From Rhizobiaceae bacterium (GTDB lineage Bacteria > Pseudomonadota > Alphaproteobacteria > Rhizobiales > Rhizobiaceae), in assembly GCA_019635715.1 (NCBI GenBank), contig JAHBYY010000034.1, forward strand, positions 1-47,343: a stretch of 47,343 nucleotides of DNA. Direction: 5' to 3'. Below, piece after piece: positions 19,577 to 41,171 of the stretch (the stretch's first letter is position 1; each line of letters starts with the position of its first letter). The position numbers were made by a program, and so were the translations under genes. The notes under the pieces were generated by a model that saw only the letters and a program-made list of their open reading frames with translations, did not search any database and was not told where the DNA came from.

Positions 19577-20572
19577 GTGTCGCGCCGCATGCCGAAGTGC
19601 CTGATCGTCCAGCCCATCCATCCGGATGCCGTCGCCCATCTCGAGAAGCATGACGTGAAGGCCGTCGTTTCGCGCGCCACCGACGAGGCCGGCCTGCTCG
19701 ACGAAGCGGTCGAGGCCGATGCCGCCATCACCCGCAATGCCGGTCTGCCGCGCGCCGCCATCGCCGTCTGCCGTCGCCTCCGTATCATCGCCATTCACGG
19801 GATCGGCACGGATGCCGTCCCCGTCGACCTGGCGACGGAAAGCGGCATCGTCGTCGTCAACACGCCCGATGCCAATCTTCAGTCCGTCGCGGAACACGCG
19901 CTGTCCTTGCTGCTTGCCGTGGCCAAGCGGCTTCCCGATGCCGACCGAGCCACGCGTGCCGGCGACTTTGCCTTCAAGTTCCGCGCTCCGTCGCGGGAAG
20001 TGTCCGGCGGGGTGCTCGGCCTTGTCGGGTTCGGCAAGATCGCTGGGCGCGTCGCCGCGATGGCGCGGGCCTTCGGCATGCATGTCGTGGCCCTGTCGCC
20101 GAACCAGCCGGATGAGGCATTCCAGCTCGCCGGGGTGGAGCGGGTCCCCGATCTCCGTACCCTGCTGACAAAGTCCGACTTCGTGTCGCTCCACCTGCCG
20201 CTGACACCTGCCACGCGCCACATGATCGGCGAGCCCCAGCTCAGATTGCTGCGCAGCGACGCCATCCTCGTCAACACCAGCCGCGGCGCGATCGTCGACG
20301 AGATCGCGCTCGCCGATTGGCTCGCCCGCAATCCCGGGGCCGGTGCCGGACTCGACGTGTTTTCGGTCGAGCCGCCGCCGCTCGATCATCCGCTGCTTGG
20401 ATTGCGCAACGTCGTGCTCAGTCCCCATACGGCGGCGTCGAGCGAGGCCGCGCTGCGCCGCACCGGCATCGAAGCCGCCGAGGCCGTTCTGACCGTTCTT
20501 GGCGGGGGCATTCCGCGCAATGTCGTCAATCCCGACGTGTTCGGTCGCCTGCGCGGATTGGAAGCCTCGTGA
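19577..20572 (+). CDS. D-isomer-specific 2-hydroxyacid dehydrogenase
   Basis: A 331-residue NAD(P)-dependent dehydrogenase that interconverts a 2-hydroxy acid and a 2-keto acid. The Rossmann motif GLVGFGKIAGRVA lies near residue 150. The catalytic Arg is in LVNTSRGAIVDE near 240, Glu in LDVFSVEPPP near 265 and His in LSPHTAAS near 285, all intact. It resembles SerA/hydroxypyruvate-reductase relatives without the ACT domain; the substrate is not clear. The start is GTG at 19577 with GAGGA four bases before it; an ATG four codons in (19589) is the alternative. Its stop overlaps the next gene's GTG. The perfect palindrome upstream places it in the GntR regulon. Confidence 0.88.
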   Translation: MSRRMPKCLIVQPIHPDAVAHLEKHDVKAVVSRATDEAGLLDEAVEADAAITRNAGLPRAAIAVCRRLRIIAIHGIGTDAVPVDLATESGIVVVNTPDANLQSVAEHALSLLLAVAKRLPDADRATRAGDFAFKFRAPSREVSGGVLGLVGFGKIAGRVAAMARAFGMHVVALSPNQPDEAFQLAGVERVPDLRTLLTKSDFVSLHLPLTPATRHMIGEPQLRLLRSDAILVNTSRGAIVDEIALADWLARNPGAGAGLDVFSVEPPPLDHPLLGLRNVVLSPHTAASSEAALRRTGIEAAEAVLTVLGGGIPRNVVNPDVFGRLRGLEAS

Positions 20573-21834
20573 CCGACCAGCGCACCGGGCCGGACGGCAT
20601 AGACGGGCTGGCCGCCAGCTTTCTCGCGGACCTCGAAGCCCGCACCGCCGACCCGCCGGGCGTGACGCGCCAGGCCTATGGATCGGGTGAGGCGGCTGCG
20701 CACCGATTGCTCGCCGCCTATGCCGGACGGCTCGGCCTGCCGGTGGAGACGGACCGCGCCGGCAACCTCTATGTGACGCTGCGGGGTCGCGATCCTGCAG
20801 CGCCGGTCTGGATGATCGGATCGCATCTCGATTCTGTGCCGCATGGCGGCAATTTCGACGGAGGGGCAGGGGTTGCCGCCGGTCTCGCGGTGCTCGCGGA
20901 GATCAAGCGCCGTGCCGTGCAGCCGCGCCGCTCCATCGTCCTGGTGGCGATACGGGCCGAGGAGAGCACCTGGTTTCCCGCCTCCTACATCGGCAGCCGC
21001 GCCGCCTTCGGGCTGCTCGCCGCGCCCGAACTCGACCTGAAGCGCAGCGACACGGGCGAGACGCTCGCGGTCCATATGCGCCGGGAGGGCTTTCCGCCCG
21101 AGCGGCTTCTCGGCGAACCCGGATATCTCGACCCGGCGCGGCTTCACGGCTTCATCGAGGTCCATATCGAGCAGGGTCCGACGCTCGTGCTTGATCGCAA
21201 GCCGATCGGGCTGGTCTCCGCCATCGCCGGCAGCTTCCGCTATCGCTCGGCGCGGGTGCGGGGCGCCTATGGGCACTCCGGCGCCGTGGCCCGCCGCCAC
21301 CGGCACGATGCCGTGTTCGCCTTCGCCGACATGGTGGCGGCGCTGGACCGGTTGTGGGCCGATCTCGACGCCGCCGGCAAGGCGGCGACCATCACCTTGG
21401 GCGAAGTATCCACCGATCCGGAGATGCACGCCTTCAGCAAGATTCCCGGCGAGCTGTGCTTCAGCCTCGACGTGCGCAGCGGCGATTCGCAGGTGCTCGC
21501 CGAGATCCGGCGCGACCTCGAGGCCATCGCGAAGCGGATCGAGGACGCCCGCGGCGTCAGCTTCGATTTCGGATTGCTGACCGCCAGCACGCCGGCGGTT
21601 CTGGATGCCGGCATCCGCGAGGCCCTGGCCGAGCAGGCGCGGCGGCATCGCATCGGCTATGTCGTGCTGCCCAGCGGGGCGGGACACGACGCCGCCGTCT
21701 TCGCCCAGCAGGGGGTGGCGACGGCCATGATCTTCGTGCGCAACGAGAACGGCAGCCACAACCCCGACGAGGCCATGCAGCTCGAAGACCTCGGCTGCGC
21801 GCTCACCATTCTGGTCGACCTTCTGGCCGAATAG
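20569..21834 (+). CDS. M20-family amidohydrolase (hydantoinase/carbamoylase type)
   Basis: A 421-residue Zn/Mn-dependent hydrolase of the group holding N-carbamoyl-L-amino-acid hydrolase, beta-ureidopropionase and allantoate amidohydrolase. Metal and substrate motifs in order are GSHLDSVPHGGNFDGGAGV near residue 85, RAEESTWF near 125, VHIEQGP near 200, YGHSGA and RHRHDA near 240, and SGAGHDAAVFAQQG near 370. Expected reaction: cleavage of an N-carbamoyl or similar amide to a free amino acid. The start is a GTG overlapping the dehydrogenase stop (GTGA, 20569-20572); the frame upstream is open but lies inside that gene. The two form a coupled operon under operator site 1. Confidence 0.88.
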   Translation: MTDQRTGPDGIDGLAASFLADLEARTADPPGVTRQAYGSGEAAAHRLLAAYAGRLGLPVETDRAGNLYVTLRGRDPAAPVWMIGSHLDSVPHGGNFDGGAGVAAGLAVLAEIKRRAVQPRRSIVLVAIRAEESTWFPASYIGSRAAFGLLAAPELDLKRSDTGETLAVHMRREGFPPERLLGEPGYLDPARLHGFIEVHIEQGPTLVLDRKPIGLVSAIAGSFRYRSARVRGAYGHSGAVARRHRHDAVFAFADMVAALDRLWADLDAAGKAATITLGEVSTDPEMHAFSKIPGELCFSLDVRSGDSQVLAEIRRDLEAIAKRIEDARGVSFDFGLLTASTPAVLDAGIREALAEQARRHRIGYVVLPSGAGHDAAVFAQQGVATAMIFVRNENGSHNPDEAMQLEDLGCALTILVDLLAE

Positions 21835-21847
21835 CCGGGCCCGGGAG

Positions 21848-21893: not shown

Positions 21894-21964
21894 TCCGCGC
21901 CATCGCATTGGGGGGTACGCAGCCGCGGACCCGCCGGTCCACGGCCACAGGCGGCAGTCCTGCT

Positions 21965-22756
21965 CTATCCCTGGCGGCGCTTGCGCAAGGTCTGGTCGGC
22001 GAACAGCAGCAGGGCGCTGAACACGATCAGCAGCACCGCGACGGCGGCGATCGACGGATCGAGATCCTCGTTGATGCCGTCCCAGATCTGCCGGGGCAGG
22101 GTGAGGATGTTGCGGCTGGCGATGAACAGCACGACGATCAGCTCGTCCCAGGAGCTCAGGAAGGCGAACAGCGCGCCGGAGAAGATGCCGGGCGCGATGA
22201 TCGGCAGCACGATCAGCCGCAGCCGGTCCACCGGGCCGGCGCCGAGCCCGGCCGCGGCGGCTTCCAGCCTGCGGTCGAAGCCGGAAAGCGCCGCGCTGAC
22301 CGTGATGATCACATAGGGCATGCCCATCATGGCGTGGGCAAGGATGACGCCGGTATAGGTGTCGAGGATCTTGAGGTCGATCCACAGGCGGTAGACGCCC
22401 AGCGCATACACGACCGGCGGGATGACCGCGGGCAGCACCATGATCGCGCGGATGGACGAGGAGATGCGGCCCCCGGCGCGCCAGCAGCCGAGCGCGCAGA
22501 GCGTGCCGGCGACCGTCGCGATCAGCGTGGCGACCAGGCCGATCACCACGCTCTGGCCGAAGGCCGGCAGCCAGGCCGCATCGCTCCACAGGGCCTTGTA
22601 GTGGGCCAGCGAGAGGCCTTCCGACGGAAGCGACAGATAGCTTCGGTCGGTCAGCGAGATCGGCAGGACGAAGATCAGCGGCACCAGCAGGAAGGCCGCG
22701 ACGACCACCGCCAGCGCCTGCACGCCGAATGTCGGACGGGTGCCCTGATCGACCAT
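21965..22756 (-). CDS. ABC transporter permease, PotC-like (importer A)
   Basis: A 263-residue inner-membrane permease with six predicted helices. The EAA loop, EAAAAGLGAGPVDRLRLIVLP near residue 170, contacts the ATPase. It matches the spermidine/putrescine/iron-type permease family (COG1177). The start ATG at 22756 lies two bases after the stop of the PotB-like gene, so the two are co-translated. It is the last gene of the minus-strand operon ATPase-permease-permease. The binding protein of this importer is probably the divergent one at 26263. The true substrate may be an amine or amino-acid derivative rather than a polyamine. Confidence 0.9.
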   Translation of the reverse strand: MVDQGTRPTFGVQALAVVVAAFLLVPLIFVLPISLTDRSYLSLPSEGLSLAHYKALWSDAAWLPAFGQSVVIGLVATLIATVAGTLCALGCWRAGGRISSSIRAIMVLPAVIPPVVYALGVYRLWIDLKILDTYTGVILAHAMMGMPYVIITVSAALSGFDRRLEAAAAGLGAGPVDRLRLIVLPIIAPGIFSGALFAFLSSWDELIVVLFIASRNILTLPRQIWDGINEDLDPSIAAVAVLLIVFSALLLFADQTLRKRRQG

Positions 22757-22758: not shown

Positions 22759-23604
22759 CTATCGCTCCGTCCGCGAATGGGAGGGGTCGAAGAAACGCGA
22801 CAGCAGCAGCAGCAGCGCGATCGTCACGACGACGAGCACGGTTGCCAGCATCGCGCCGACGCCCCAGCGCGGCAGGACCAGGATCTGCGTGGTGATGTAC
22901 TGCGCGATCATCATGGTGCGGCCGCCGCCGAGGATGGCGGGGGTCGTGTAGAAGCCGAAGGTCAGGATCAGCACCAGGATCGCCGAGGCGGCGATACCGG
23001 GCATCGACAGCGGCAGGAACACCTCGCGGAAGGCGCGGCCGCGCGAGGCGCCCATGCCGCGCGCCGCCTCGACAAGGCGGATGTCGATCGCCGCCATCGA
23101 CGCCAGCAGCGGCAGGACGGCGTAGGGGATCATGTAGTGGACCATGCCGACGATGACGCCGAACTCGTTCCAGATCAGCGGCAGCGGCTGGTCGATGACG
23201 CCCAGCGACTGGAGGAACTGGTTCACCAGGCCGCGCCGCTGCAGCAGCGTCACCCAGACGAAGGAGCGCACCAGCGCCGAAACCCAGAGCGGCAGCAGCA
23301 CGCCGTAGAGCATGAACGTCCGCATGCTCCGCGAGCCGATGGTGATGACATAGGCCATCAGATAGCCGAGCGGCACGGCGATCGCCGTCGTGATCAGGCA
23401 GATGCGGGCGGTCGCGGACAGCACCGCCTGGATGCCGCTCGAGGTGAACAGCATTTCGTAATTGCCGAGGCCCGGTGTCGGCTCCAGCACGCTGAGCGAC
23501 AGGACGCGGCCGACCGGGAAGAGGTAGAACAGCAGGAGCAGGAGCAGCGCCGGGGCGGCAAGCAGCAGCCCGGTCCGTGCGGCGGCCGATTTGGTCTCTC
23601 CCAC
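22759..23604 (-). CDS. ABC transporter permease, PotB-like (importer A)
   Basis: A 281-residue permease with six predicted helices and the EAA loop EAARGMGASRGRAFREVFLPL near residue 185. It matches COG1176 (PotB family). I placed the start at GTG 23604 (VGETKSAAARTG), because it lies two bases behind the ATPase stop and the first helix begins soon after. The open frame runs on to 23820 inside the ATPase gene without similarity. It pairs with the PotC-like permease to form the heterodimeric channel. Confidence 0.9.
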   Translation of the reverse strand: MGETKSAAARTGLLLAAPALLLLLLFYLFPVGRVLSLSVLEPTPGLGNYEMLFTSSGIQAVLSATARICLITTAIAVPLGYLMAYVITIGSRSMRTFMLYGVLLPLWVSALVRSFVWVTLLQRRGLVNQFLQSLGVIDQPLPLIWNEFGVIVGMVHYMIPYAVLPLLASMAAIDIRLVEAARGMGASRGRAFREVFLPLSMPGIAASAILVLILTFGFYTTPAILGGGRTMMIAQYITTQILVLPRWGVGAMLATVLVVVTIALLLLLSRFFDPSHSRTER

Positions 23605-23606: not shown

Positions 23607-24704
23607 TCAGCGCTCCGAAAGCAGCGTTGCGGCATGCGCCGACCAGCCGAGCGCCACCGGCTGGCCCTCGCCGAAGGCCGTTGCCCCGCCGCCGCCGTCG
23701 GGTGCCCAGGCCGCCGCGGTCGACAACAGGAGGCCGATCCCCTCGACCTCGGCCTCGATGGCGATGCTCGATCCGAGGTAGGTGCGGCTGCGCAGCATGC
23801 CTTCGACGACGTTGGCGCATGATCTGGCAGCGTCGCCGACCGCGATGCGCTCGGGGCGCAGCGTCAGGGTGACCTCCGTTCCGGCTTGCAGGCGCTCCGG
23901 CGAGATCGCCAGCAGCCGAAGGCCGCCGACCCGCACGGCGACTTCATCGCCGCGCTGTTCCTCGACGTCGCCGGAGAAGAAGTTGCTCTGGCCGAGGAAG
24001 CCGGCGATGAACCGGTTGGCCGGCCGCTCGTAAAGGTCGGCCGGCGTGCCGATCTGCGCCAGGCGCCCGTTGTTCATCACCGCCACCCGGTCGGACAGCG
24101 ACATGGCTTCGTCCTGATCGTGGGTGACGAAGATGAAGGTCAGGCCGAGATCGCGATTGAGTTCCCTGAGTTCGCGCTGCACCTCCGAGCGTAGCTGGCG
24201 GTCGAGCGCGCTCAGCGGTTCGTCGAGCAGCAGGAGGTTGGGCTCGAAAGCGATGGCGCGGGCCAGCGCCACGCGCTGCTGCTGGCCGCCGGACAACTGG
24301 CGCGGCAGCCGATCCTCGAATCCGTCGAGGCGGACGCGCGCCAGGACGGTGCGGACCCGCTCCGCGATCTGCGCTTTGGGCCGTCCGCGCATCCGCAGCC
24401 CGAAGGCGACGTTCTGCGCCACCGTCATGTGCGGGAACAGCGCATAGCCCTGATAGACCATGCCGAAGGCGCGCTTCTCCGGCCCCCAGGCGGTAATGTC
24501 CTGGCCCCTCAGATGCAGCCTCCCGGCGTCCGGCGCGGAAAAGCCGGCGATCATGCTCAGGACGGTCGACTTTCCGGACCCGGAGGGCCCCAAAAGCGTA
24601 AGGAATTCGCCAGGTTGGATGTCGGCGCTGAAGTCGTCGACGGCGACCACCGGACCATAGCGCTTCGTCAGGTTGCGGGCGGAAAGGGCAGGGGTTCCGT
24701 TCAT
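23607..24704 (-). CDS. ABC transporter ATP-binding protein, PotA-like (importer A)
   Basis: A 365-residue ATPase. Walker A is GPSGSGKST near residue 40, the Q-loop VYQGYALFPH near 85, the signature LSGGQQQRVALARA near 137, Walker B LLLLDEPLSALD near 157 and the switch His THDQDEA near 195. A TOBE domain fills the last ~110 residues. The start ATG at 24704 follows a weak GAG; the frame opens further upstream to 24803 without support. It is the first gene of the importer A operon, divergent from the M24 gene, with operator site 2 78 bases upstream. Confidence 0.92.
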   Translation of the reverse strand: MNGTPALSARNLTKRYGPVVAVDDFSADIQPGEFLTLLGPSGSGKSTVLSMIAGFSAPDAGRLHLRGQDITAWGPEKRAFGMVYQGYALFPHMTVAQNVAFGLRMRGRPKAQIAERVRTVLARVRLDGFEDRLPRQLSGGQQQRVALARAIAFEPNLLLLDEPLSALDRQLRSEVQRELRELNRDLGLTFIFVTHDQDEAMSLSDRVAVMNNGRLAQIGTPADLYERPANRFIAGFLGQSNFFSGDVEEQRGDEVAVRVGGLRLLAISPERLQAGTEVTLTLRPERIAVGDAARSCANVVEGMLRSRTYLGSSIAIEAEVEGIGLLLSTAAAWAPDGGGGATAFGEGQPVALGWSAHAATLLSER

Positions 24705-24781: not shown

Positions 24782-24793
24782 TTGGCATACCAT
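24782..24793. promoter_or_regulatory. GntR-type operator, site 2
   Basis: TTGGCATACCAT matches TTGGTATACCAA at 10 of 12 positions. It lies in the 324-base divergent gap between the importer A ATPase (minus) and the M24 gene (plus), which otherwise shows no gene, so it could control both. Confidence 0.65.
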
Positions 24794-25028: not shown

Positions 25029-26225
25029 ATGGCAAATGAGTTTCTGACCGACGTCGACGGGCGCACGGTAACGCTGCGCTTCGAGCGAAGCGAGCACGAG
25101 GAGAGGATCGCCCGGACAAGGGCGATCCTGAGGGAGCGCGACCTCGCGGCCCTTCTCGTCTTCGCGCAGGAGAGCCACTATTACCTCACCGGCTACGACA
25201 CCAGCGGCTACGTCTATTTCCAGTCCGGCGTGATCACCGCCGACGAGGGCCGCAAGGTTCTGCTGACGCGTCGGCCGGACCAGTCGCAGGCCGAGGACAC
25301 CTCGCTCTACGAGGATATCCGCATCTGGCTCAACGCCGAGGATGTCAATCCGGCCGACGAGCTCCGCAAGATTCTCCAGGAACTCGGCCTCCAGGGCCAG
25401 AGGATCGGCATCGAACTCGCGACCTACGGCCTGACCGGCTACAACTACGAACGCGTGCGCGTCGCCATGGAAGGCTTCTGCACGCTCGTCGATGCCTCGG
25501 ATGTCGTGCGGTCGCTGCGCGTGCGCAAATCGCCGAGCGAGCTCGCCTATGTGCGCCGGGCGGGCGAACTCGCCGACGATGCCGTTCATGCGATGGTCGA
25601 GGCGGCGCGGCCCGGCATCTCCGACAGCCTGGTGACGTCGGCCTGCATCCACGCCATGCTGGTCGGCGGCGGCGACATGCCTTCGGGCGATCCGATGGTC
25701 AATTCCGGCCCCCGCGCCGTCTACGGCCGCGGGCTCGGTGTGCCGCGCATGCTGGAGACCCAGGACCAGTTGATGCTGGAGCATGCGGCCTCCTACTGCC
25801 GCTATACGGTGGTGACGGAGCGCACCGTCGTGCTCGGCACGCCGCCGGAGCGTCAGCGCACTATGTTCAAGGTGGCGACCGACACGCTCTACGAGATCAT
25901 CGACTATGCCCGGCCCGGCCGGCTGATCGGCGAGCTCGACGACATCCATCGCCGCAATCTCGACGCCGCCGGATACGAGAAGTACCGCTTCTCGGCCTGC
26001 GGCTACTCGCTCGGCACGACCTTCCGTCCGACCTGGATGGATCCGCCGCCCATGCTCTATTCCGGCAACCGCACGCCGATCGAGACCGGCATGGTGCTGT
26101 TCTGCCATGTCGTCATCGGGGACCGCGACCACGGCCTCACCGCTGCCACCGGCCTGACCTTCCATGTCGGCGAAAGCGCGACCGAGATCCTCAGCGCGAT
26201 CCCGATGGAACTTCACGTGAAGTGA
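25029..26225 (+). CDS. M24 'pita-bread' hydrolase with altered metal site (creatinase-like), copy 1
   Basis: A 398-residue protein with an N-terminal creatinase/prolidase domain (about 15-165) and a C-terminal M24 domain (about 175-390). In active M24 metallopeptidases an Asp-x-Gly and a second Asp bind metal; here the equivalent stretch reads LEHAASYCRYTVVTERT, so both Asp are gone, and the usual EP motif near the end reads GMVLFCHVV. The ERT is kept, as in creatinase, which also works without metal. It is therefore probably a metal-free C-N hydrolase and not an Xaa-Pro peptidase. The start ATG at 25029 gives the normal family length; the upstream open frame is unsupported. The importer A binding protein follows it. 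Confidence 0.82.
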   Translation: MANEFLTDVDGRTVTLRFERSEHEERIARTRAILRERDLAALLVFAQESHYYLTGYDTSGYVYFQSGVITADEGRKVLLTRRPDQSQAEDTSLYEDIRIWLNAEDVNPADELRKILQELGLQGQRIGIELATYGLTGYNYERVRVAMEGFCTLVDASDVVRSLRVRKSPSELAYVRRAGELADDAVHAMVEAARPGISDSLVTSACIHAMLVGGGDMPSGDPMVNSGPRAVYGRGLGVPRMLETQDQLMLEHAASYCRYTVVTERTVVLGTPPERQRTMFKVATDTLYEIIDYARPGRLIGELDDIHRRNLDAAGYEKYRFSACGYSLGTTFRPTWMDPPPMLYSGNRTPIETGMVLFCHVVIGDRDHGLTAATGLTFHVGESATEILSAIPMELHVK

Positions 26226-26262: not shown

Positions 26263-27369
26263 ATGACCTGGAATCCATTCCACCGCGAGATGAACGACCT
26301 CATCGCCGAAGGCATCGCCTCCGGCCGTCTCAGCCGGCGCGACGTGCTGGTCGGCCTCGGCGCGGCGTCCGCGGCGCTCGCCATGGGAGCCGGCGCCAGC
26401 TTCGCCCAGGCCAAGGAGATCGTGCTTGCCAACTATGGCGGCGACGCCGCGAAATCCATGGATGAGAGCTTCGGCAAGCCCTACACCGCCGACACCGGCA
26501 TCCCGGTGGTGATCGACGGCTCCGGTCCGTCGCTGGGCAAGATCCGGGCGATGGTGCAGAGCGGCAACGTCACCTGGGACGTATGCGATTCGTCGCCGGG
26601 CGATTCTTACATCCTCGGTCGCGCCGGCGAGCTCGAGGAGATCGACTACTCGATCGTCGACAAGAACAACATGCTGCCGGGCTTCGACATGCCCTACTGC
26701 GCCGGCATCTCCGCCTACAGCTTCGTGCTCGCCTACGACAAGGCGGCCGTCGGCGACACCCCGCCGGCGAGCTGGGCCGATTTCTGGGACGTCAAGAAAT
26801 ATCCGGGCAAGCGCGGCCTGTGGCACGACATGACCGGCGTGCTGGAAGCAGCGCTGATGGCCGACGGCGTGTCGCGCGACGCGCTCTACCCGCTCGACGT
26901 CGATCGCGCCTTCAAGAAGATCGAGGAGATCAAGGAGCACACGATCTTCTGGTCGTCGGGCTCCAACAGCCAGCAGTTGCTGCGCGACGGCGAGGTCGTC
27001 ATGGCGCAGATCTGGAGCACGCGCGCCCGCATCCTCTCCGACGAGACGCAGGACCGGCTGTCCTGGACCTGGAATGACGGCCTGCTGCTCGCCGGCGTCT
27101 TCTCGGTGCCGAAGGGCAACCCGGCCGGCAAGGAAGCGATGAAATTCATCAACTCGGTGCTGACGCCCGAGCGCCAGATCGCCTTCCTGCGCACGCTGGG
27201 CAGCGGCCCCTCCAACCCGGCCGCCGCCAAGATCGTCCCGGCCGACCTGGAGCGCGTCAACCCGACCTCCGAGACGGCGCGCGCCCTGCAGGGCATCTGC
27301 AACGACGGCTGGTACGCCGACAATTACGAGAAGACCTTCGAGCGCTATCTCGAACTCATCGCTAGCTGA
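26263..27369 (+). CDS. ABC transporter substrate-binding protein, PotD-like, Tat-exported (importer A)
   Basis: A 368-residue periplasmic binding protein (COG0687 family). Residues 22-48 hold a twin-arginine signal (LSRRDVLVGLGAASAALAMG) ending FAQA. The mature part has the family hallmarks VTWDVCDSSPGD near residue 103, ASWADFWDVKKYPGKRGL near 170 and NDGLLLAGVFSVPKGNP near 265. Export by Tat rather than Sec suggests it folds before export. It lies 37 bases after the M24 gene, in the same operon and divergent from the importer A ATPase and permeases. A strong hairpin follows the stop. Spermidine/putrescine binding is not assured; ligand residues were not compared. Confidence 0.9.
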   Translation: MTWNPFHREMNDLIAEGIASGRLSRRDVLVGLGAASAALAMGAGASFAQAKEIVLANYGGDAAKSMDESFGKPYTADTGIPVVIDGSGPSLGKIRAMVQSGNVTWDVCDSSPGDSYILGRAGELEEIDYSIVDKNNMLPGFDMPYCAGISAYSFVLAYDKAAVGDTPPASWADFWDVKKYPGKRGLWHDMTGVLEAALMADGVSRDALYPLDVDRAFKKIEEIKEHTIFWSSGSNSQQLLRDGEVVMAQIWSTRARILSDETQDRLSWTWNDGLLLAGVFSVPKGNPAGKEAMKFINSVLTPERQIAFLRTLGSGPSNPAAAKIVPADLERVNPTSETARALQGICNDGWYADNYEKTFERYLELIAS

Positions 27370-27375
27370 TGCTCG

Positions 27376-27405
27376 ATGGCCGTGCCGCTCCGGCGGCACG
27401 GCCAT
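27376..27405. terminator. Bidirectional hairpin terminator between the binding protein and GntR genes
   Basis: A perfect 13-bp stem (27376-27388 with 27393-27405) closes a TCCG loop, six bases after the binding-protein stop. It sits between convergent genes, so it can end transcription from both sides. No long T-run is present. Confidence 0.65.
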
Positions 27406-27432
27406 TCCGCTGCCGCGCGGCGGTGACTGCGT

Positions 27433-28919: not shown

Positions 28920-28931
28920 TTGGTGTACCAG
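28920..28931. promoter_or_regulatory. GntR-type operator, site 3
   Basis: TTGGTGTACCAG matches TTGGTATACCAA at 10 of 12 positions and lies in the 94-base divergent gap between pxpA and pxpB, 29 bases before the pxpB ATG and 55 before the pxpA ATG. One site can serve both directions and gntR itself. Confidence 0.65.
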
Positions 28932-30632: not shown

Positions 30633-30651
30633 ACGGCGCTCGGAGACTGTC

Positions 30652-30776: not shown

Positions 30777-30785
30777 ATCAGTCTA

Positions 30786-33518: not shown

Positions 33519-33530
33519 TCGGTATACCAA
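33519..33530. promoter_or_regulatory. GntR-type operator, site 4
   Basis: TCGGTATACCAA matches TTGGTATACCAA at 11 of 12 positions. It lies in the divergent gap, 94 bases from the SDR ATG and 107 from the amidotransferase start. TTGCGT (33501) and TATACC (33523), 16 bases apart, make a plausible plus-strand promoter overlapped by the operator. Confidence 0.72.
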
Positions 33531-33636: not shown

Positions 33637-34365
33637 TTGACGTCACGCCGCCTCGCCTATCTCGACAACGGTCGCACGCCGGACCGTTTCAGCGGACTGC
33701 CGGAATTCTTCACCGCCGCCGGCATGGAGGTCGTCACCTTCCGCGCCTATGACGAGGTCTTTCCCGACGATGCCGCGGCGTTCGATGGCATCCTCCTGTC
33801 GGGCAGCGCCCACGGCGCCTATGACGACGTGCCGTTCATCCACCGCGAGCACGATTTCATCCGCGACGCGGCGGATGGCGGGACGCCGATGCTCGGCCTC
33901 TGCTTCGGCAGCCAGATCCTCGCCTCGGCGCTGTGCGGCCGCGATCAGGTCTTTCGGCGTCCGACCTGCGAGGTCGGCCACGCGCGGCTCGCCATGACGC
34001 CGGCGGCCGGGAGCGATCCGCTGGCAGGCGGCTTCGGCAGCGAGATCGGCATGTTCGTCTGGCACAATGACGAGGTCCGTCACGCCCATCCCGACATGGT
34101 GGTGCTCGCCTCGACCGCCGCATGCCCCAATCAGATCTGGCGCTTTCGCGATGCCCCGGTCTGGGGAATCCAGGGGCATCCGGAACTGACCCGGGCCAAT
34201 GCCCGCGACTGGATCGGCAAGGCCGCCGACGCGCTGCGCAAGGACGGCGCCGATCCGGATCAACTCATCCTCGAAACCGAAGACAGCCGTGCAGGTCTCG
34301 GCATGCTCCGGAATTTCGCACGGATCTGTCAGTCGACAGCTCATTCAACGAAAACAGGGGAATAG
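33637..34365 (+). CDS. Class I glutamine amidotransferase-like protein (possible gamma-glutamyl hydrolase)
   Basis: A 242-residue stand-alone amidotransferase domain. The nucleophile Cys is in MLGLCFGSQILASAL near residue 87, and the His-Glu pair is in WGIQGHPEL near 178; the triad is complete. Stand-alone members of this fold hydrolyse gamma-glutamyl bonds (PuuD-like) or supply ammonia to an unknown synthase. No synthetase domain is attached or nearby, so hydrolysis is more likely. The start is difficult: no ATG lies between the operator and the conserved domain. TTG at 33637 with GGGGA/GGAA upstream gives the correct family N-terminus (TSRRLAYLDNGRTP). It is the first gene of the long plus-strand importer B operon. 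Confidence 0.82.
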   Translation: MTSRRLAYLDNGRTPDRFSGLPEFFTAAGMEVVTFRAYDEVFPDDAAAFDGILLSGSAHGAYDDVPFIHREHDFIRDAADGGTPMLGLCFGSQILASALCGRDQVFRRPTCEVGHARLAMTPAAGSDPLAGGFGSEIGMFVWHNDEVRHAHPDMVVLASTAACPNQIWRFRDAPVWGIQGHPELTRANARDWIGKAADALRKDGADPDQLILETEDSRAGLGMLRNFARICQSTAHSTKTGE

Positions 34366-34368: not shown

Positions 34369-35418
34369 ATGCGCATGGCATCGAGGATCGGGGCCGTCGG
34401 CCTCTCAGTCCTGCTGGCGGCGGGCACCGTCGCGGCTTCCGCCAAGGAATTCGTCTTCGTCAGTTGGGGTGGCGCCTATCAGGACGCCATCCGCGAAGCC
34501 TGGCTGAAGCCGTTCATGGAGGCGACCGGCACCAAGGTCACCGAGGAGACCTCGCCTGAAACCGCAAAGATCCAGGCCATGGTGACCTCCGGCGCCGTCA
34601 CCTGGGACATCGTCACCGACGGTGGTCTCGGTGTGACGCGTGGCGCCAAGGCCGGTCTCTTCGAAGAGATCACGCCCGAGATGGTCGACCAGTCCGGCCT
34701 CTATCCGGAGATCCTCAACAAATACGGCGTGCCCTCGGAAATCTTCTCCACGGCCTTCGCCTTCTCGACCGAGGCCTTCCCGGACGGCAAGCCGCAGCCC
34801 GAAAGCTGGGCCGATTTCTGGAACGTCGAGAAGTTCCCCGGGTCGCGCGCCCTGTTCGGCCAGCCGCAGAGCGTGCTCGAGGCTGCGCTGATGGCCGACG
34901 GCGTTGCGCAGGCTGATGTCTACACGGTGCTCGCCACCAAGGAAGGCCAGGACCGGGCGTTCGACAAGGTGCGCGAACTGAAGCCGCATGTCGGCCTGTG
35001 GTGGACCGGCGGCGCGCAGCCGGTGCAGGCGATCGGCAGCGGCGAAGTCGTCATGGCCAATGGCTGGAACGGCCGCCTGCAGGCCGGCATCACCGAGGGC
35101 CTGCCGCTCAAGATCGTCTGGAACGGCGCGGTTGCCGAGGTCGGCTACTTCATGCTGGTCAAGGGCGCCCCGCACCGCGACGACGCCATCGAGTTCCTGC
35201 GCTGGGTCACCAAGCCGGAATCGCAGGCGCAGTTCCACAAATACGTCTCCTACGGCCCGACCATGCCGGGCGCCTGGGAATTCATCCCGCAGTCCGAGTG
35301 GGGCCGCCTGCCGTCCTCGCCCGATATCCTGAAGCAGTCGATCTTCCTGAACGTCGACTGGTGGCTGGAGAACGAGGCCGCGATGGTCGAGCGCTACAAC
35401 GCGCTGATGCAGGAATAG
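34369..35418 (+). CDS. ABC transporter substrate-binding protein, PotD-like (importer B)
   Basis: A 349-residue periplasmic binding protein (COG0687). A Sec signal (MRMASRIGAVGLSVLLAAGT, cleaved after VAASA) precedes KEFVFVSWGGAYQDAIREAW. Landmarks are VTWDIVTDGG near residue 82, ESWADFWNVEKFPGSRALF near 145 and WTGGAQPVQAIGSGEVVMANG near 208. It starts 4 bases after the amidotransferase stop with AGGGGAA. It is a distant paralogue of the Tat-exported protein at 26263 but uses Sec. The two may bind related ligands. A strong hairpin follows before the M24 gene, which should stabilise this part of the transcript. Confidence 0.9.
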   Translation: MRMASRIGAVGLSVLLAAGTVAASAKEFVFVSWGGAYQDAIREAWLKPFMEATGTKVTEETSPETAKIQAMVTSGAVTWDIVTDGGLGVTRGAKAGLFEEITPEMVDQSGLYPEILNKYGVPSEIFSTAFAFSTEAFPDGKPQPESWADFWNVEKFPGSRALFGQPQSVLEAALMADGVAQADVYTVLATKEGQDRAFDKVRELKPHVGLWWTGGAQPVQAIGSGEVVMANGWNGRLQAGITEGLPLKIVWNGAVAEVGYFMLVKGAPHRDDAIEFLRWVTKPESQAQFHKYVSYGPTMPGAWEFIPQSEWGRLPSSPDILKQSIFLNVDWWLENEAAMVERYNALMQE

Positions 35419-35442: not shown

Positions 35443-35469
35443 GTCTCCGGCGGGCAGCCCGCCGGAGAC
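35443..35469 (+). promoter_or_regulatory. Intra-operon hairpin after the binding-protein gene
   Basis: GTCTCCGGCGGGC and its complement form a stem of at least 12 bp around a 3-base loop, 25 bases after the binding-protein stop and 24 before the M24 start. It has no T-run. Such hairpins commonly protect the 3' end of the binding-protein message so that this subunit is made in excess. Confidence 0.6.
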
Positions 35470-35492: not shown

Positions 35493-36632
35493 ATGACCAG
35501 CCTCATGTGGTTCACGCGCGACGAATATGCGTCGCGTCTTGCGCGGGTGCAGCGCGAACTCGTCGGCATGGGTCTCGACGGGCTGGTCGCCTACCAGCCG
35601 GAGACGGTCACCTGGACGACCGGCTTCTACACCAAGGCCTATACCAACTACCACATGGCCGTCATTCCCGCCGAGGGACAGCCGTCCCTGCTCTGCCGCG
35701 ACGTCTCGCGCTACTACGCCGAGCGCACCTTCGCCTTCGACGAGGTGCGCTATTGGACCGACGGACAGGACCAGGACGAGCTTGCGGTGGCGCTGGTGCG
35801 CGACCGCCTCGGCGATCGTGCGCGGCTCGGCATCGAACTGTCGTCCTGGATGATGCCGGTGACCCGCTACCGCCGCTTCGGCAAGGCGCTGCCCGGCGTC
35901 GAATGGGTCGATGTCGGCGATCTGAATCCGCGCCTGCGCATCATCAAGTCGCCGGCCGAGATCGCCTACCAGCGCCACGCGGCGCGCGCCGCCGAGGCTG
36001 CGATGACCGCCGCGCTGGACGCCGCCGCGCCGGGTCGCAACGAACTCGACGTCGCCGCCGCTGCCACCGCCGCGCTGGTGAAGGCGGCGAGCGACACGCC
36101 GGGTCCGGGCGTCTTCTCGTCGGGCGAGCGCGCCATGCACCTGCATGGCGGCTATATCGACCGCGTCCTGCGGCGGGGCGACACGATCCAGTACGAGCCG
36201 ACGCCGCATGTGCGCCACTACAACGCCCGCTTCATGCGCACCATCAAGGTCGGCTCGGCGACCGACGAGGAACTGCGTCTCGCCGAAGCGTTGATTGCGA
36301 TTCAGGATGAAGCGCTTGCGGCCGTGCGTCCAGGTGTTGCCGCAACCGTTCCCGATGCCATCTATCGCGCCGGCATCGAGGCGACCGGCAAGGTCAGGTG
36401 CTACACCAACAAGACCTTCTACTCGCTCGGCATGCTGATGACGCCGAGCCACGCCGAGCCGCTGGAGGCGACGCCGGTGGCGACATGGACCTTCCAGCCG
36501 GGCATGGTCTTCCACAGCTACCTGCTGGTCGGCGATTTCGGCATGTCGGAGACCATCCACGTCACCGAGACGGGCGTCGAGCGGCTGACCGGCTACCGGC
36601 GCGATCTCCTCGTCTCGGGGCAGGGCGGATGA
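35493..36632 (+). CDS. M24 'pita-bread' hydrolase with altered metal site, copy 2
   Basis: A 379-residue protein with an N-terminal creatinase-type domain (about 8-135) and a C-terminal M24 domain (about 150-375). The first metal-binding stretch reads YEPTPHVRHYNARFMRT, where active peptidases have D-x-G...D-x-T-R-T; the first Asp is Glu and the second is Arg. The late EP motif is replaced by GMVFHSYLL, but SETIHVTETG keeps its Glu. It is related to the copy at 25029 yet differently altered. It is likely a metal-independent amide or C-N hydrolase like creatinase or ectoine hydrolase, not a true aminopeptidase. Its stop overlaps the permease start (ATGA, 36629-36632). Confidence 0.82.
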   Translation: MTSLMWFTRDEYASRLARVQRELVGMGLDGLVAYQPETVTWTTGFYTKAYTNYHMAVIPAEGQPSLLCRDVSRYYAERTFAFDEVRYWTDGQDQDELAVALVRDRLGDRARLGIELSSWMMPVTRYRRFGKALPGVEWVDVGDLNPRLRIIKSPAEIAYQRHAARAAEAAMTAALDAAAPGRNELDVAAAATAALVKAASDTPGPGVFSSGERAMHLHGGYIDRVLRRGDTIQYEPTPHVRHYNARFMRTIKVGSATDEELRLAEALIAIQDEALAAVRPGVAATVPDAIYRAGIEATGKVRCYTNKTFYSLGMLMTPSHAEPLEATPVATWTFQPGMVFHSYLLVGDFGMSETIHVTETGVERLTGYRRDLLVSGQGG

Positions 36633-38326
36633 CCGTTCTCGCCGGAGACGAGGCAGCGAGACCGCCGCCGTCCCGACTGCCGCTGCTGCCGCGCGGCGCC
36701 GGACTGGCGGCCGGCCTCGTCGTGCTCGTCTTCGCCGTCCTGTTCGTCTGGCCGATCGTGCGATTGATCGCGACCACCGTCTTCGTCGATGCGCGGGGAT
36801 GGACGGCCTTCGCGACCATCGTCTCGTCGCCGATGTATCGCACCGCCTTCACCAACACCTTCTTCATTTCCGGGCTGGTGACGCTGATCACCCTGCTGGC
36901 CGCCTATCCGATCGCCTATTTCATGGCGACGGTGCAGCCGCGCACCGCCAAGCTCATCGCTTTCGTGGTCCTGCTTCCGTTCTGGACCAGCGCCCTCGTG
37001 CGCACCACCGCCTGGATGGTGCTGCTGCAGCGCCGCGGCATCGTCAACAGCCTGCTGATGAACACCGGCATCACCGACGCGCCGATCCCGCTGCTCTACA
37101 ATCTGTCGGGCGTCATCATCGGCATGGTGCATGTGCTGCTGCCGTTCATGGTGCTGCCGCTCTATGCGACCTTCCTGTCGGTCGACCAGCGGCTGATCGC
37201 GGCGGCCGAGGGGCTCGGCGCGCCGCGCTTCACCGTGCTGCGCCGCATCGTCCTGCCGCTGACCGCGCCCGGCGCGGCGGCCGGCGCGCTGATCGTCTTC
37301 ATGTCGGCGATCGGCACCTTCATCACGCCGGTGCTGATGGGCGGCCCGCGCCAGATGATGATCGCCCAGGCGATCAGCTACCACATGCAGAAGCAGCTCG
37401 ACTGGCAGATGGCCGGCGCGCTGTCGCTGGTGCTGCTCGCCGTCACGCTGGTGCTGTTCCTGGTCTATCGCCAGGTCTTCGGCCTCGACCGGCTGGTCGC
37501 CGCCGACGCCGGTGTCGCCGGCGATCCCGACGGGCCGCTGCGCGGCGTGCTCGGCCTCGGGCGGCTGCCGGCCGGCATCATGGCCGTTGCCGTCGGCCTG
37601 TTCCTGATCGCGCCGATCGCCATGGTCTATCCGCTCAGCATCTCGTCGTCGCCGTTCCTGCAGTTTCCGCCGGCCCGCTGGACCTTCGACTGGTACGCCA
37701 AGCTGGCCGACGACCCGAAATGGCTGCGCGCCGCGCTGTCCAGCCTGCGCGTCGCCGCTGAGGCCATCGCGCTGTCGGTGATCCTCGGCACGGCAGCCGC
37801 CGTCGCCGCCAGCCGCATCGCGCCGCGTCTGCGCGCCGGCATGGAGGTGCTGATCCTGCTGCCGATGGTCGTCCCGACCATCATCACGGCGATCGCGCTC
37901 TACAGCCAGTATGCCCCTCTCGGCATTCTGGGCTCGCCCGAAAGCCTGGCGATCGGCCACACGATCCTTGCCGCGCCGTTCGTCTTCATCACGGTCAGCG
38001 CCTCGCTGAAAAGCTTCGACCGCAATCTCGAGCTCGCAGCACTCGGGCTTGGCGCGTCCTGGAGCGCGATGTTCCGGCGGATCATGCTGCCGGCCATCCT
38101 GCCCGGCATCCTTGCCGGAGCGGTGTTCGCCTTCATCACGTCCTTCGACGACGTCGTTCTCTCGATCTTCCTCACCAACTCGGCCAGCCGCACCCTGCCG
38201 CGCGTCATCTACGAGGGAATCAAGGACGACACCGACCCGGCGGTCGTCGCGCTCGCGGCGATCCTGATCACCATCTCCTTCGGGGCCTTCCTGCTCAGCC
38301 TTCTCGCGAGGGACAGACGCGCATGA
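36629..38326 (+). CDS. ABC transporter permease, two fused PotB/PotC-like domains (importer B)
   Basis: A 565-residue protein made of two complete permease domains, about 12 membrane helices. EAA loops are seen twice: AAAEGLGAPRFTVLRRIVLPL near residue 195 and LAALGLGASWSAMFRRIMLP near 475. A linker of about 30 residues (VAADAGVAGDPDGPLRGVLG, near 295-314) joins the halves. Importer A has the same two domains as separate genes. The fusion resembles FbpB-type iron permeases in layout, but the local binding protein is PotD-like. The start overlaps the M24 stop and the end overlaps the ATPase start, both by ATGA. Confidence 0.9.
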   Translation: MTVLAGDEAARPPPSRLPLLPRGAGLAAGLVVLVFAVLFVWPIVRLIATTVFVDARGWTAFATIVSSPMYRTAFTNTFFISGLVTLITLLAAYPIAYFMATVQPRTAKLIAFVVLLPFWTSALVRTTAWMVLLQRRGIVNSLLMNTGITDAPIPLLYNLSGVIIGMVHVLLPFMVLPLYATFLSVDQRLIAAAEGLGAPRFTVLRRIVLPLTAPGAAAGALIVFMSAIGTFITPVLMGGPRQMMIAQAISYHMQKQLDWQMAGALSLVLLAVTLVLFLVYRQVFGLDRLVAADAGVAGDPDGPLRGVLGLGRLPAGIMAVAVGLFLIAPIAMVYPLSISSSPFLQFPPARWTFDWYAKLADDPKWLRAALSSLRVAAEAIALSVILGTAAAVAASRIAPRLRAGMEVLILLPMVVPTIITAIALYSQYAPLGILGSPESLAIGHTILAAPFVFITVSASLKSFDRNLELAALGLGASWSAMFRRIMLPAILPGILAGAVFAFITSFDDVVLSIFLTNSASRTLPRVIYEGIKDDTDPAVVALAAILITISFGAFLLSLLARDRRA

Positions 38327-39417
38327 CCGCAACTTCGAAACCGGAAAGCGCCGGAAAGCGCGTCCAGATCAGCGGCCTTTCCAAGCTCTACGGCGGCCAT
38401 CCGGCGGTCGACCGGGTGTCGATCGACATCGCCGCCGGCAGTTTCTGCACCATTCTCGGCGCCTCCGGCTCCGGCAAGACGACGCTCCTCAAGATGGTCG
38501 CGGGGTACGAGCAGCCGACGGAAGGACGCATCGAGATCGACGGCCGCGACGTGGCGTCGATGCGCGTCGCGGCGCGCAACATCGGCATGGTCTTCCAGAA
38601 CTATGCGCTGTTCCCCCACATGACCGTCGCCGCCAACCTGGCGTTTCCCCTGGAGATGCGCGGCCTGGCGAAAGCCGATATCGTCGCGCGCGTCACGGCC
38701 ATGCTCGAGCTCATCGGACTTGCAGGATTTGGCAGCCGGCTGCCGCGCGAACTGTCGGGCGGACAGCAGCAGCGCGTCGCGCTCGGCCGCGCCCTGATCT
38801 TCGAGCCGGACATCCTGCTCATGGACGAGCCGCTGGGCGCGCTCGACAAGAACATGCGTCAGGCCATGCAGCGCGAGATCCGCGCGATCCATCGCAAGGT
38901 CGGCGTGACGGTCCTCTACGTCACCCACGACCAGGACGAGGCGATGAACATGGCCGACCTCGTCGTCGTCATGGACAAGGGGCGCGTCGCGCAGACCGGC
39001 TCGCCGCTCGACATCTACAATGCGCCGCGCACCGACTTCGTCGCCACCTTCCTCGGCGACTGCAACCTGATCGACGTCGAGCGTGGCCGCGACGGCGTCA
39101 GGCGGCTGGCGCTTGCCGGCGGCATCGCCATTCCGGCTGGCGTCAAATCCGGTCGCGCCGAAATGGTCGGCGTGCGGCCCGAGCGGATCAGCGTCGGCGC
39201 CGACCCGATACAGCGGGACATCGTGCTCTCCGGCACCGTCGTCGAAACCCATTTCAACGGCGCCGACCATGACGTCGTGGTCGACGTCGACGGCAGGCCG
39301 GTGCGCGCCCGGCTCGCCAATGGCGGCCAATTGCCGCCTTCGATCGGAAACCGGGCCTATCTCGGTTGCGATTTCGCCGACCTCATTCCATTGGAAGCAA
39401 TCGGCGCAACACGCTGA
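38323..39417 (+). CDS. ABC transporter ATP-binding protein, PotA-like (importer B)
   Basis: A 364-residue ATPase. Walker A is GASGSGKTT near residue 48, the Q-loop FQNYALFPH near 92, the signature LSGGQQQRVALGRA near 145, Walker B ILLMDEPLGALD near 165 and the switch His THDQDEA near 205. A TOBE domain fills about 285-360. It is complete and typical of polyamine/iron importers. The ATG overlaps the fused permease stop. The aldolase gene follows after 28 bases. It is a paralogue of the ATPase at 23607. Confidence 0.93.
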   Translation: MTATSKPESAGKRVQISGLSKLYGGHPAVDRVSIDIAAGSFCTILGASGSGKTTLLKMVAGYEQPTEGRIEIDGRDVASMRVAARNIGMVFQNYALFPHMTVAANLAFPLEMRGLAKADIVARVTAMLELIGLAGFGSRLPRELSGGQQQRVALGRALIFEPDILLMDEPLGALDKNMRQAMQREIRAIHRKVGVTVLYVTHDQDEAMNMADLVVVMDKGRVAQTGSPLDIYNAPRTDFVATFLGDCNLIDVERGRDGVRRLALAGGIAIPAGVKSGRAEMVGVRPERISVGADPIQRDIVLSGTVVETHFNGADHDVVVDVDGRPVRARLANGGQLPPSIGNRAYLGCDFADLIPLEAIGATR

Positions 39418-39445
39418 AACATCAAGAAACGACAGGAGGAGCGCC

Positions 39446-40393
39446 TTGGCCGAAACAAGGATCGGACGCGACACGAAGGGCGTCTACATCATCGCCGCCA
39501 CACCGTTCGCCGACGACGGTTCGATCGACTTCAGGAGCGTCGACAGCATGGTCGACTTCTATCTGGAGCATGGCGTCAACGGCATGACCATTCTCGGCAT
39601 GATGGGCGAGGCCAACAAGCTGACCGAGGACGAGTCGCGCCGGTTCGCCTCCCACATCCTGCGCCGGCTGAAGGGCAGCCTGCCGGTGATCGTCGGCGTC
39701 TCGGGCGCCGGCATCGACAACCTCAGGGACCTTGCCGGGTTTGCGATGGGCGAGGGCGCCGCCGGCATTATGGTGGCGCCGACGCCGGGGCCGGCCGTCG
39801 AGGACCGCATCCTCGGCTATTTCGCGCAGGTCTGCGACGCCGTCGGGCCCGACGTGCCGATCTGCTTCCAGGACTTTCCGCAGGTGACCGGCGTGCCGGT
39901 CTCCTCGAACACCATCCTGTCGCTGACGCGCAACCATCCGCAGATCGTCATGCTCAAGCACGAGGACAGCCCCGGCCTTGCCAAGGTCGAGACCGTTCGC
40001 ACCAAATCCGGCACGGCCGACACGCCGCGCATGTCGATCCTGTGCGGCAATGGCGGGCTCTACCTGCCGCTGGAGCTGGCACGCGGCGCCGATGGCGCGA
40101 TGACCGGCTTCGCCTATCCCGAAATGCTCGTCCAGGTGGTGAACAGGCATGCCGCCGGCGACGTCGACGGCGCCGAGGCCCTGTTCGACGCCTATTTGCC
40201 GATCCTGCGCTACGAGCAGCAGCTCGTCTTCGGGCTCGCGGCGCGCAAGGAGATCCTGCGGCGCCGCGGCGCCATCGCTTCCGCCTTCGTGCGCAGGCCG
40301 GGTCCGCGCCTGTCGCCGGCCGACCATCGCGACATCGACCGCCTGATGCGCCGTACCGAGGATTACGTCAGGAGGCTCGGCAATGCAGCTTGA
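39446..40393 (+). CDS. DapA-family (N-acetylneuraminate lyase superfamily) aldolase with altered active site
   Basis: A 315-residue Schiff-base aldolase/synthase. The Lys that forms the imine is present in QIVMLKHEDSPG near residue 170. The usual LYNxPxRTG motif reads CFQDFPQVTG, so the catalytic Tyr is replaced by Gln. GMMGEANKLTEDE near residue 50 stands where GTTGE is usual. It is therefore not lysine-pathway DapA; it probably adds or removes pyruvate or a similar keto acid from an unknown aldehyde. The start is TTG at 39446 with AGGAGGA five bases upstream, a strong choice. Its end overlaps the SDR by 11 bases. Confidence 0.85.
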   Translation: MAETRIGRDTKGVYIIAATPFADDGSIDFRSVDSMVDFYLEHGVNGMTILGMMGEANKLTEDESRRFASHILRRLKGSLPVIVGVSGAGIDNLRDLAGFAMGEGAAGIMVAPTPGPAVEDRILGYFAQVCDAVGPDVPICFQDFPQVTGVPVSSNTILSLTRNHPQIVMLKHEDSPGLAKVETVRTKSGTADTPRMSILCGNGGLYLPLELARGADGAMTGFAYPEMLVQVVNRHAAGDVDGAEALFDAYLPILRYEQQLVFGLAARKEILRRRGAIASAFVRRPGPRLSPADHRDIDRLMRRTEDYVRRLGNAA

Positions 40394-41171
40394 ACTCGAA
40401 GGACGCCGCGCCCTTGTCCTGTCGTCGTCGCGCGGCCTCGGCCTGGGTGTCGCCGAAGCCCTGGCGGCGGAAGGCGCCGATGTGGCGATCTGCGGACGCA
40501 ACGGCGAGCGGCTGGAGGCTGCCGCGGCCGCCATCACCGCCCGAGGCGGCGGACGCGCCGTGGCGATCCGGGCCGACCTGAGCGAATTGAATTATTCCAG
40601 CCGGGTCGTGGCCGAGGCGACCGGCAGGCTGGGCGGCATCGACATCCTGGTCAACAATTCCGGCGGTCCGCCGCCCGGCACGGCCTACGCCATCGACCAG
40701 GCGCAGCTCCACCAGCACTTCGCCCAGATGGTCGCCAAGCTCATCGAGGTGACCGGCCTCGTCCTGCCGGCGATGCGCCAGCGCCGCTGGGGGCGGGTGC
40801 TGACGATCGCCTCGTCCGGCGTCGTCCAGCCGATCCCCAACCTGGCCCTGTCCAACACGCTTCGCGCCGCACTGATCGGCTGGTCGAAGACCCTGTCGGC
40901 GGAGGTCGCGGCGGACGGGGTCTGCGTCAACGTCCTGCTGCCGGGCCGAATCGCCACCGACCGCGTCGACGAGCTCGACGAGGCGGCGGCCAGGCGGACT
41001 GGCAAATCGATCGACGAGATTCGTACCCAGTCGCGTGCGACCATCCCGTCCGGCCGCTACGGCGAGGTCCGGGAGTTCGCCTCCGTCGCGGCTTTCCTGT
41101 GCTCGGGGCCGGCGAGCTACGTCAATGGCAGCGTCGTGCGCTGCGACGGCGGCGCCATCCGCTCGATCTGA
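40383..41171 (+). CDS. SDR-family oxidoreductase lacking the standard catalytic Tyr-Lys
   Basis: A 262-residue SDR-fold protein, last gene of the importer B operon. The cofactor turn reads SSSRGLGLG in place of TGxxxGxG, and the catalytic segment reads ALSNTLRAALIGWSK, where classical members have YxxxK. This matches a known FabG-like subgroup (BKR-like) with a degenerate active site. NNSGG near residue 90 and the C-terminal YVNGSVVRCDGG are normal. It may still be an enzyme, using other residues, or only bind nucleotide. It overlaps the DapA-like gene, so the two probably share a substrate. Confidence 0.85.
   Translation: MQLELEGRRALVLSSSRGLGLGVAEALAAEGADVAICGRNGERLEAAAAAITARGGGRAVAIRADLSELNYSSRVVAEATGRLGGIDILVNNSGGPPPGTAYAIDQAQLHQHFAQMVAKLIEVTGLVLPAMRQRRWGRVLTIASSGVVQPIPNLALSNTLRAALIGWSKTLSAEVAADGVCVNVLLPGRIATDRVDELDEAAARRTGKSIDEIRTQSRATIPSGRYGEVREFASVAAFLCSGPASYVNGSVVRCDGGAIRSI

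Follow-up and report, generated by a model that had tools for sequence, protein, structure and literature searches.

What do the 21 genes encode that lie on both strands between positions 19577 and 41171 of a contig from a Rhizobiaceae bacterium, and do they form one system? The contig (C80; JAHBYY010000034.1 of assembly GCA_019635715.1), analysed at its full length of 47,343 nucleotides and called the window here, belongs to a genome of 4.57 Mb in 151 contigs that is 85% complete. An earlier note on this DNA had proposed a catabolic island under one regulator. The genes were identified by Pfam and NCBIfam profile scans of the window proteins (NCBIfam covered 20 of the 21, the ATPase of importer b being recognized by Pfam alone), and start codons were set from the profile matches and the upstream sequence. 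All the families named beforehand were found, and the count of two importers, seven hydrolases or lyases, four dehydrogenases and one regulator holds. Literature searches of the Creative Commons-licensed full text of PubMed Central, judged mainly from the listed papers, brought up no description of this gene set. We consider the chances about even that the island is an accessory catabolic regulon for the uptake and hydrolysis of a carboxylated cyclic amide or ureide, with amino and keto acids as end products; the genes, the palindromes and their conservation, the recurrence of the set and the active-site changes on which this proposal draws are read directly from the sequence.

The argument for one regulon starts from the promoter gaps. 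Spacing and strand indicate seven transcription units, namely 2HADH-M20, potA-potB-potC, M24a-SBPa, pxpA-gntR, pxpB-pxpC, SDR2-amidohydrolase-SDR1 and GAT-SBPb-M24b-permease-ATPase-DapA-SDR3 (2HADH, D-2-hydroxyacid dehydrogenase; SBPa and SBPb, binding proteins of importers a and b; SDR, short-chain dehydrogenase/reductase; GAT, class I glutamine-amidotransferase-fold hydrolase). The gene set of the tightly overlapping operons described earlier is retained, but the layout is not, as the units lie on both strands and pxpA, which appears to form one unit with gntR, is divergent from pxpBC. The palindrome TTGGTATACCAA or close variants of it occupy four promoter gaps, which are the heads of all seven units, so that every one of the 21 genes belongs to a unit headed by a site. 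The predicted operators are the perfect palindrome TTGGTATACCAA ahead of 2HADH-M20 (19545-19556), TTGGCATACCAT between the potA-like gene and M24a (24782-24793), TTGGTGTACCAG between pxpA and pxpB (28920-28931) and TCGGTATACCAA between SDR2 and GAT (33519-33530). With at most one mismatch, TGGTATACCA occurs at 28 places in the 4.57-Mb genome, four of them inside the island, and the sole exact copy of the genome is the one at 19545-19556. The shorter pattern GGYNTACC is enriched in the window: when palindromes are scored once per strand, it matches 11 times against a mean of 3.8 in shuffled sequence, a number reached in none of 100 shuffles.

The candidate that would read these sites is the GntR/FCD regulator (27433-28077, minus strand, start at 28077; PF00392, PF07729), and the conservation of the palindrome beside its relatives gives a test of the idea that is independent of the island. 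Exact TGGTATACCA was found 11 times in the 2.02 Mb of loci fetched, compared with zero or one copy for each of five control palindromes; at one mismatch the number was 33, compared with 5-48 for the controls. In other species, 12 of 17 GntR relatives at 37% identity or more have the palindrome beside them. Where loci had been retrieved on other grounds, a site was present 44-185 bases upstream of all ten GntR relatives (at least 37% identity over at least 120 residues), while in the island gntR is the second gene of its unit and the site sits before pxpA. Six loci were fetched by GntR similarity itself, with sites beside gntR in L130 and L132 and none in L129, L131, L133 and L134, and a partial GntR relative in L105 (39%) had no site either. 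GntR matches of 35% or less had no site, the exceptions being L066-L068, rhizobial plasmids related to one another that carry a TGGAATACCA variant. These observations point to a GntR/FCD regulon whose promoter palindrome is conserved beside the regulator in relatives, and they strengthen the idea of a single regulator for the island. Two other GntR loci were recorded in passing: on a Labrenzia plasmid (L132), the palindrome occurs twice in exact form (11922 and 12718) at the gntR gene adjoining hydA, and on contig C24 of the island's own genome a GntR/FCD locus (L123, 3281-6796) carries two TGGCATACCA sites beside AA_synth, alpha/beta hydrolase and flavin-reductase family genes.

The earlier note had looked to synteny for the decision on whether the genes belong together, and the outcome is divided: parts of the set recur in relatives, but the modules partly assort alone. 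Two modules recur, usually apart, one comprising GntR, amidotransferase, binding protein, M24 and importer, the other PxpABC, 2HADH, M20, GntR and M24. The eight loci whose M24b is most similar to that of the island (53-58% identity) are those of G307, G487, G529, G452 and G411, Nitratireductor sp. B36, Roseomonas haemaphysalidis and Rhizobium sp. SSA_523. In the sequence retrieved around them, GAT was present in all eight, GntR in seven (the locus lacking it is a contig of 6.5 kb), SBPb in six, the DapA-like gene in four, and the amidohydrolase, M20 and PxpA in two each. The Pxp module was defined as PxpBC with GntR and M24; the seven loci that represent it (L035, L070, L080-L083, L129) were picked because they match, and M20, 2HADH and PxpA are each found in six of them. 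Several clusters contain a transaminase, of the D-amino-acid type in L081-L083 and of class III in L075, L066 and L067.

Gene sets carrying GAT or M24b are rare. GAT matched at E <1e-40 in 2 of 385 genomes of the class and M24b at E <1e-60 in 5 of 150 genomes of the order, the island's own genome being included in these and the following class-wide counts; an M24b scan of genome contigs yielded a single true relative, in Nitratireductor, besides one match of 27 residues, and a GAT scan of viral contigs gave no match. M24a and M20 are more widespread, with matches in 78 and 26 of the 385 class genomes (M20 at 36 places), and neither proved usable as a marker of coupling: PxpABC, M20 and GntR were absent from all 16 M24a neighbourhoods fetched, and PxpABC and the DapA-like gene from all 20 M20 neighbourhoods (one neighbourhood in each set from the own genome). 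Most of these M24a relatives stand alone, with a one-mismatch palindrome in 1 of the 16 neighbourhoods (L088); among the 20 around M20, 2HADH was nearby in five, GntR in three and the palindrome in one (L110). Eleven proteins of the window from outside the island served as BLAST controls. They had no match in L080-L101 or L129-L134, one aminotransferase match in L035, and scattered MFS, aminotransferase, RND/HlyD and acyl-CoA dehydrogenase matches in 5 of the 20 M20 neighbourhoods. Within the own genome, an M20 paralogue (53%; C66, 39319-40545) has just weak 2HADH (28%) and SDR (33%) matches nearby, and an M24a paralogue (41%; C131, 2558-3706) has no other island gene near it.

It should be noted that a number of these results weigh against a single regulon. 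The genome-wide density of the sites predicts 0.13 of them in 21.6 kb, which gives a Poisson probability of 1.2e-5 for four or more, a value that is partly circular because the pattern was derived from the island sites themselves. Genome-wide, a reversed control pattern outnumbers the TGGTATACCA pattern (81 vs 28 places), and when up to three mismatches are allowed, TTGGTATACCAA shows no clear enrichment in the window (six matches, reached in 6 of 100 shuffles). Five of the 17 GntR relatives lack a site, and the palindrome is common to a wider GntR clade that includes the Variovorax locus L130 with its different gene set, as well as a GntR paralogue in the island genome (41% over 95 residues), which has two of the sites on contig C24; as the clade using the site is wider than the pathway, the site links the island with such a GntR without in itself proving that the substrate is shared. 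The M20 and M24a relatives are mostly located elsewhere, away from the set. The palindrome is present in just two of the seven Pxp-module loci (L070 and L080), and both modules occur together in just two of the eight closest M24b loci, those of Rhizobium sp. SSA_523 (L070) and G529 (L060/L074/L075), neither of which has an SBPb-type receptor beside M24b (L070 has a 26% match further off); in G529, PxpBC was not detected. It is the scarcity of the palindrome in the Pxp-module loci and the missing receptor of importer b in the two combined loci that keep our estimate for the regulon at even.

The same evidence lends itself to a second explanation, which we regard as a realistic possibility of less than even probability: two neighbouring pathways with two substrates would share one repressor, the first using importer b with GAT, M24b, the DapA-like lyase and SDR3, the second importer a with PxpABC, 2HADH, M20 and M24a. 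The modules are apart in six of the eight M24b loci, GAT was not found in six of the seven Pxp-module loci, the island has two complete importers, and related GntR proteins can share a palindrome. Nevertheless, all units of the island carry the site, there is one GntR, and the loci of SSA_523 and G529 do combine both modules. The proposed catabolic island under one regulator finds support in the palindrome shared by all units and in the recurrence of its parts, but not in the partly separate modules.

The enzymes bear on what such a regulon would degrade. All three subunits of the ATP-dependent oxoprolinase are represented, by PxpA (28074-28865, minus strand; PF03746; subfamily model NF003814 350 vs a cut-off of 226, the PxpA equivalog models staying under theirs), PxpB (28960-29685, plus strand; PF02682; TIGR00370 153.2 vs 145.55) and a PxpC-like protein (29685-30632, plus strand; PF02626), which passes the broader TIGR00724 (282 vs 230) and stays below the PxpC equivalog (238.3, under 500). 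A precedent for their control comes from Corynebacterium glutamicum, in which, according to PMC13274462, the GntR-type PxpR senses 5-oxoproline and represses pxpTABC. The island resembles this system in having PxpABC under a presumed GntR repressor and differs from it in transporter type and in the operator, which is agattgttcaacaatct there; in addition, the island has 17 further genes besides gntR and pxpABC.

An explanation built on this precedent is the scavenging of pyroglutamyl or gamma-glutamyl conjugates, in which the hydrolases would release 5-oxoproline or glutamate amides and PxpABC would make glutamate. PxpA and PxpB pass family cut-offs, the island PxpA is the only PF03746 match in the genome, a GntR sensing 5-oxoproline is known from C. 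glutamicum, and a gamma-glutamyl-gamma-aminobutyrate hydrolase annotation lies close to M24b (46-49%) in three of four plasmid loci (L066, L067, L069). Such a pathway would have no need, however, for a DapA-like lyase, 2HADH, M20 and three SDRs, the PxpC-like protein is under its equivalog cut-off, and a second PxpA could have been missed in a genome that is 85% complete; we consider this explanation unlikely.

A different group of substrates is suggested by the importers. The earlier note had described two full PotABCD-like systems, and two importers are indeed present, but the likeness to PotABCD is partial. Importer a, with PotC-like (21965-22756) and PotB-like (22759-23604) permeases (PF00528; NCBIfam scores under the cut-offs) and an ATPase (23607-24704; PF00005, PF08402), all on the minus strand, has a PotA-type ATPase by score (TIGR01187 359.1 vs 355.6). 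In importer b, the two BPD permease domains are fused in one protein of 565 residues (36629-38326; PF00528 in two stretches), followed by the ATPase (38323-39417; PF00005, PF08402), both on the plus strand. Neither binding protein, SBPa (26263-27369) or SBPb (34369-35418), both PF13416 and on the plus strand, approaches the PotD cut-off of 582, the scores being just 44.7 and 35.9 bits. Searches of the PDB match both far better to 4i1d, gamma-aminobutyrate (GABA) sensors, the mannopine receptor MotA and an agropine permease than to PotD (SBPb: 4i1d 1.3e-59, MotA 8.8e-51), so that SBPa is best described as GABA/opine-receptor-like and SBPb as mannopine/GABA-receptor-like. Polyamine import is not favoured by the PotD scores, although PotD is also clearly outranked by two chains that bear a polyamine or spermidine label (4eq7, 8jv1).

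The likeness to MotA and to the agropine permease AgaA could mean that an opine- or Amadori-type compound is degraded, as in mannopine and agropine use, and agropinic acid is a lactam. The same protein group also holds GABA sensors and unassigned receptors, no opine catabolic genes were recognized in the island, and there was no opine-oxidase-type match among the family matches listed (opine-type SDRs were not tested apart), which together make this explanation quite improbable.

The label M24 suggests peptidase chemistry for two of the proteins, which is doubtful in view of their active sites. M24a (25029-26225, YGRG type) and M24b (35493-36632, HLHG type), both PF00557/PF01321 and on the plus strand, have the ectoine hydrolase DoeA as their best solved relative in the PDB. 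The Asp, Asp, His, Glu and Glu that bind metal in M24B metallopeptidases (Xaa-Pro peptidases) are largely replaced, as read from 28 aligned rows (one G529 gene appearing twice) against prolidase 1pv9: the first Asp is Glu and the second Asp is replaced in all 28; in the 26 rows that reach these positions, the His is always Tyr, one Glu is retained in 12 (in M24a, whereas M24b has Gln) and the other Glu is always Ser or Gly, followed directly by a Glu in M24b-type rows. With most ligands replaced, the two are unlikely to be metallopeptidases, although they may still bind metal. M24b has a His that aligns with the catalytic His of creatinase; it is retained in the M24b relatives and the L035 and L081-L083 proteins, and replaced by Arg in the M24a group, including the stand-alone copies L084 and L099. 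Such a loss of ligands is not general among M24-fold catabolic enzymes, since DddP is a true metalloenzyme (PMC4108388).

A variant of ectoine or hydroxyectoine catabolism, which the DoeA match would suggest and which the earlier note had listed as a candidate, is rejected as very improbable, being contradicted at family level by scores far below the cut-offs (DoeA_2 166.3 and 142.4 bits vs 575; EutD 117.8 and 106.8 vs 613), by an FCD regulator (PF07729) in place of the MocR/GabR-type EnuR that controls ectoine clusters (PMC5924519), and by the absence of a DoeB-type match among the NCBIfam matches listed. The eut/doe clusters, as described there, do resemble the island in their importer, M24-fold ring-opening hydrolase, amidase, transaminase/dehydrogenase finish and GntR-superfamily control; the island has PxpABC, a DapA-like protein, 2HADH and an amidohydrolase in addition.

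The remaining enzymes also bear on the substrate. M20 (20569-21834, plus strand), a hydantoinase/carbamoylase-family amidase, passes NF009527 (483.1 vs 461) and TIGR01879 (258.5 vs 204) and has allantoate amidohydrolase as its best PDB match. The prolidase/imidazolonepropionase-like amidohydrolase (31487-32737, minus strand; PF01979; 3feq 1.4e-85) stays under the cut-off of its best NCBIfam model (NF051886 182.6, under 500) and scores 32.9 vs 393.25 for D-hydantoinase; in both enzymes, the metal-ligand motifs look intact by eye. GAT (33637-34365, plus strand; PF00117) has the Cys and HPE motifs, with the Cys retained in 9 of 9 and HxE in 11 of 11 relative rows covering them (one gene appearing twice). 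The DapA-like lyase (39446-40393, plus strand; PF00701; 3dz1 3.3e-79) retains the Schiff-base Lys and has Gln for the Tyr of the usual YNVP motif in 34 of 34 relative rows with at least 45% identity. SDR3 (40383-41171, plus strand; PF13561), in relatives often encoded next to the DapA-like lyase, has no YxxxK pair where one would be expected, and the same holds for 13 of 13 rows with at least 42% identity (both row counts include one G529 gene twice), whereas SDR1 (30786-31490) and SDR2 (32748-33425), both PF13561 and on the minus strand, have it. 2HADH (19577-20572, plus strand, start at 19577 or 19589; PF02826 1.3e-53) is phosphoglycerate dehydrogenase-like and lies under all equivalog cut-offs among the NCBIfam matches listed.

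What surrounds the DapA-like gene and gntR in other genomes hints at the substrate class, with a leaning towards cyclic ureides or lactams. In three of four annotated loci chosen by DapA (L032-L034, not L036), the DapA relative has genes annotated as hydantoinase-type, Asp/Glu racemase, dihydroorotase-like or carbamoylase nearby, as has the GntR relative in three of six loci chosen by GntR (L129, L132, L133). When PxpABC, M20 and the M24 proteins are considered as well, the favoured substrate is a cyclic amide or ureide with a carboxylate group that resembles a lactam or hydantoin. The island shares with hydantoin and dihydropyrimidine utilisation (HydA, racemase, carbamoylase) an M20 carbamoylase-family enzyme, and some GntR and DapA relatives lie in such clusters; it is no hydantoin cluster in the usual sense, with no HydA over the cut-off and no Asp/Glu racemase among the island family matches listed.

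For the single regulon we infer GntR binding, repression and the order of steps, as well as the substrate class, as follows. The GntR/FCD repressor, made from the pxpA-gntR unit, would bind the TTGGTATACCAA-type sites in the four gaps and silence the seven units until it is released by the compound taken up or by a metabolite of that compound, the effector probably being a carboxylate. The two ATP-binding cassette (ABC) importers would take up a small carboxylated nitrogen compound through their GABA/opine-receptor-like binding proteins; cleavage of C-N bonds would fall to the amidohydrolase, GAT and the M24 proteins, which are DoeA/creatinase-like and probably metal-free, PxpABC would open a lactam or cyclic ureide with ATP, M20 would take off an N-carbamoyl or N-acyl group, and 2HADH, the SDRs and the DapA-like lyase would finish the resulting amino or keto acid. 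A more specific version, which we offer tentatively and hold to be doubtful, is a cyclic ureide/lactam system in which PxpABC would be an ATP-dependent opener of a ring other than 5-oxoproline, the metal-free M24 proteins of the His and Arg types would be amidine or amide hydrolases, and the DapA-like/SDR couple with its unusual active sites would finish the carbon skeleton.

Several further features were recorded in and around the island. A hairpin that may be an attenuator lies between SBPb and M24b (35443-35469, plus strand), and a strong terminator-like hairpin (27365-27440) between the convergent ends of the SBPa gene and gntR. A long hairpin between pxpC and SDR1 (30636-30782) is a dispersed repeat with 17 matching stretches in the genome, including the island copy and its inverted arm, three of which begin at or near contig ends (C99, C22, C77). 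MinC and MinD adjoin the island on the right; to the left lie an RTX-repeat protein with a weak matrixin match (17330-19369) and an ECF-type sigma factor with DUF6596 (9124-10512).

Members of such clusters are named Xaa-Pro peptidases, ABC importers and dihydrodipicolinate synthases in genome annotation; here, the names Xaa-Pro peptidase and dihydrodipicolinate synthase look wrong. The enzyme groups concerned are encountered repeatedly on plasmids of rhizobia, methylobacteria and roseobacters. Should the regulon prove right, it would represent the use of an overlooked nitrogen source, and it would give functions to the metal-poor M24 proteins, to the DapA-like/SDR pair and to PxpABC beyond the plain use of 5-oxoproline.

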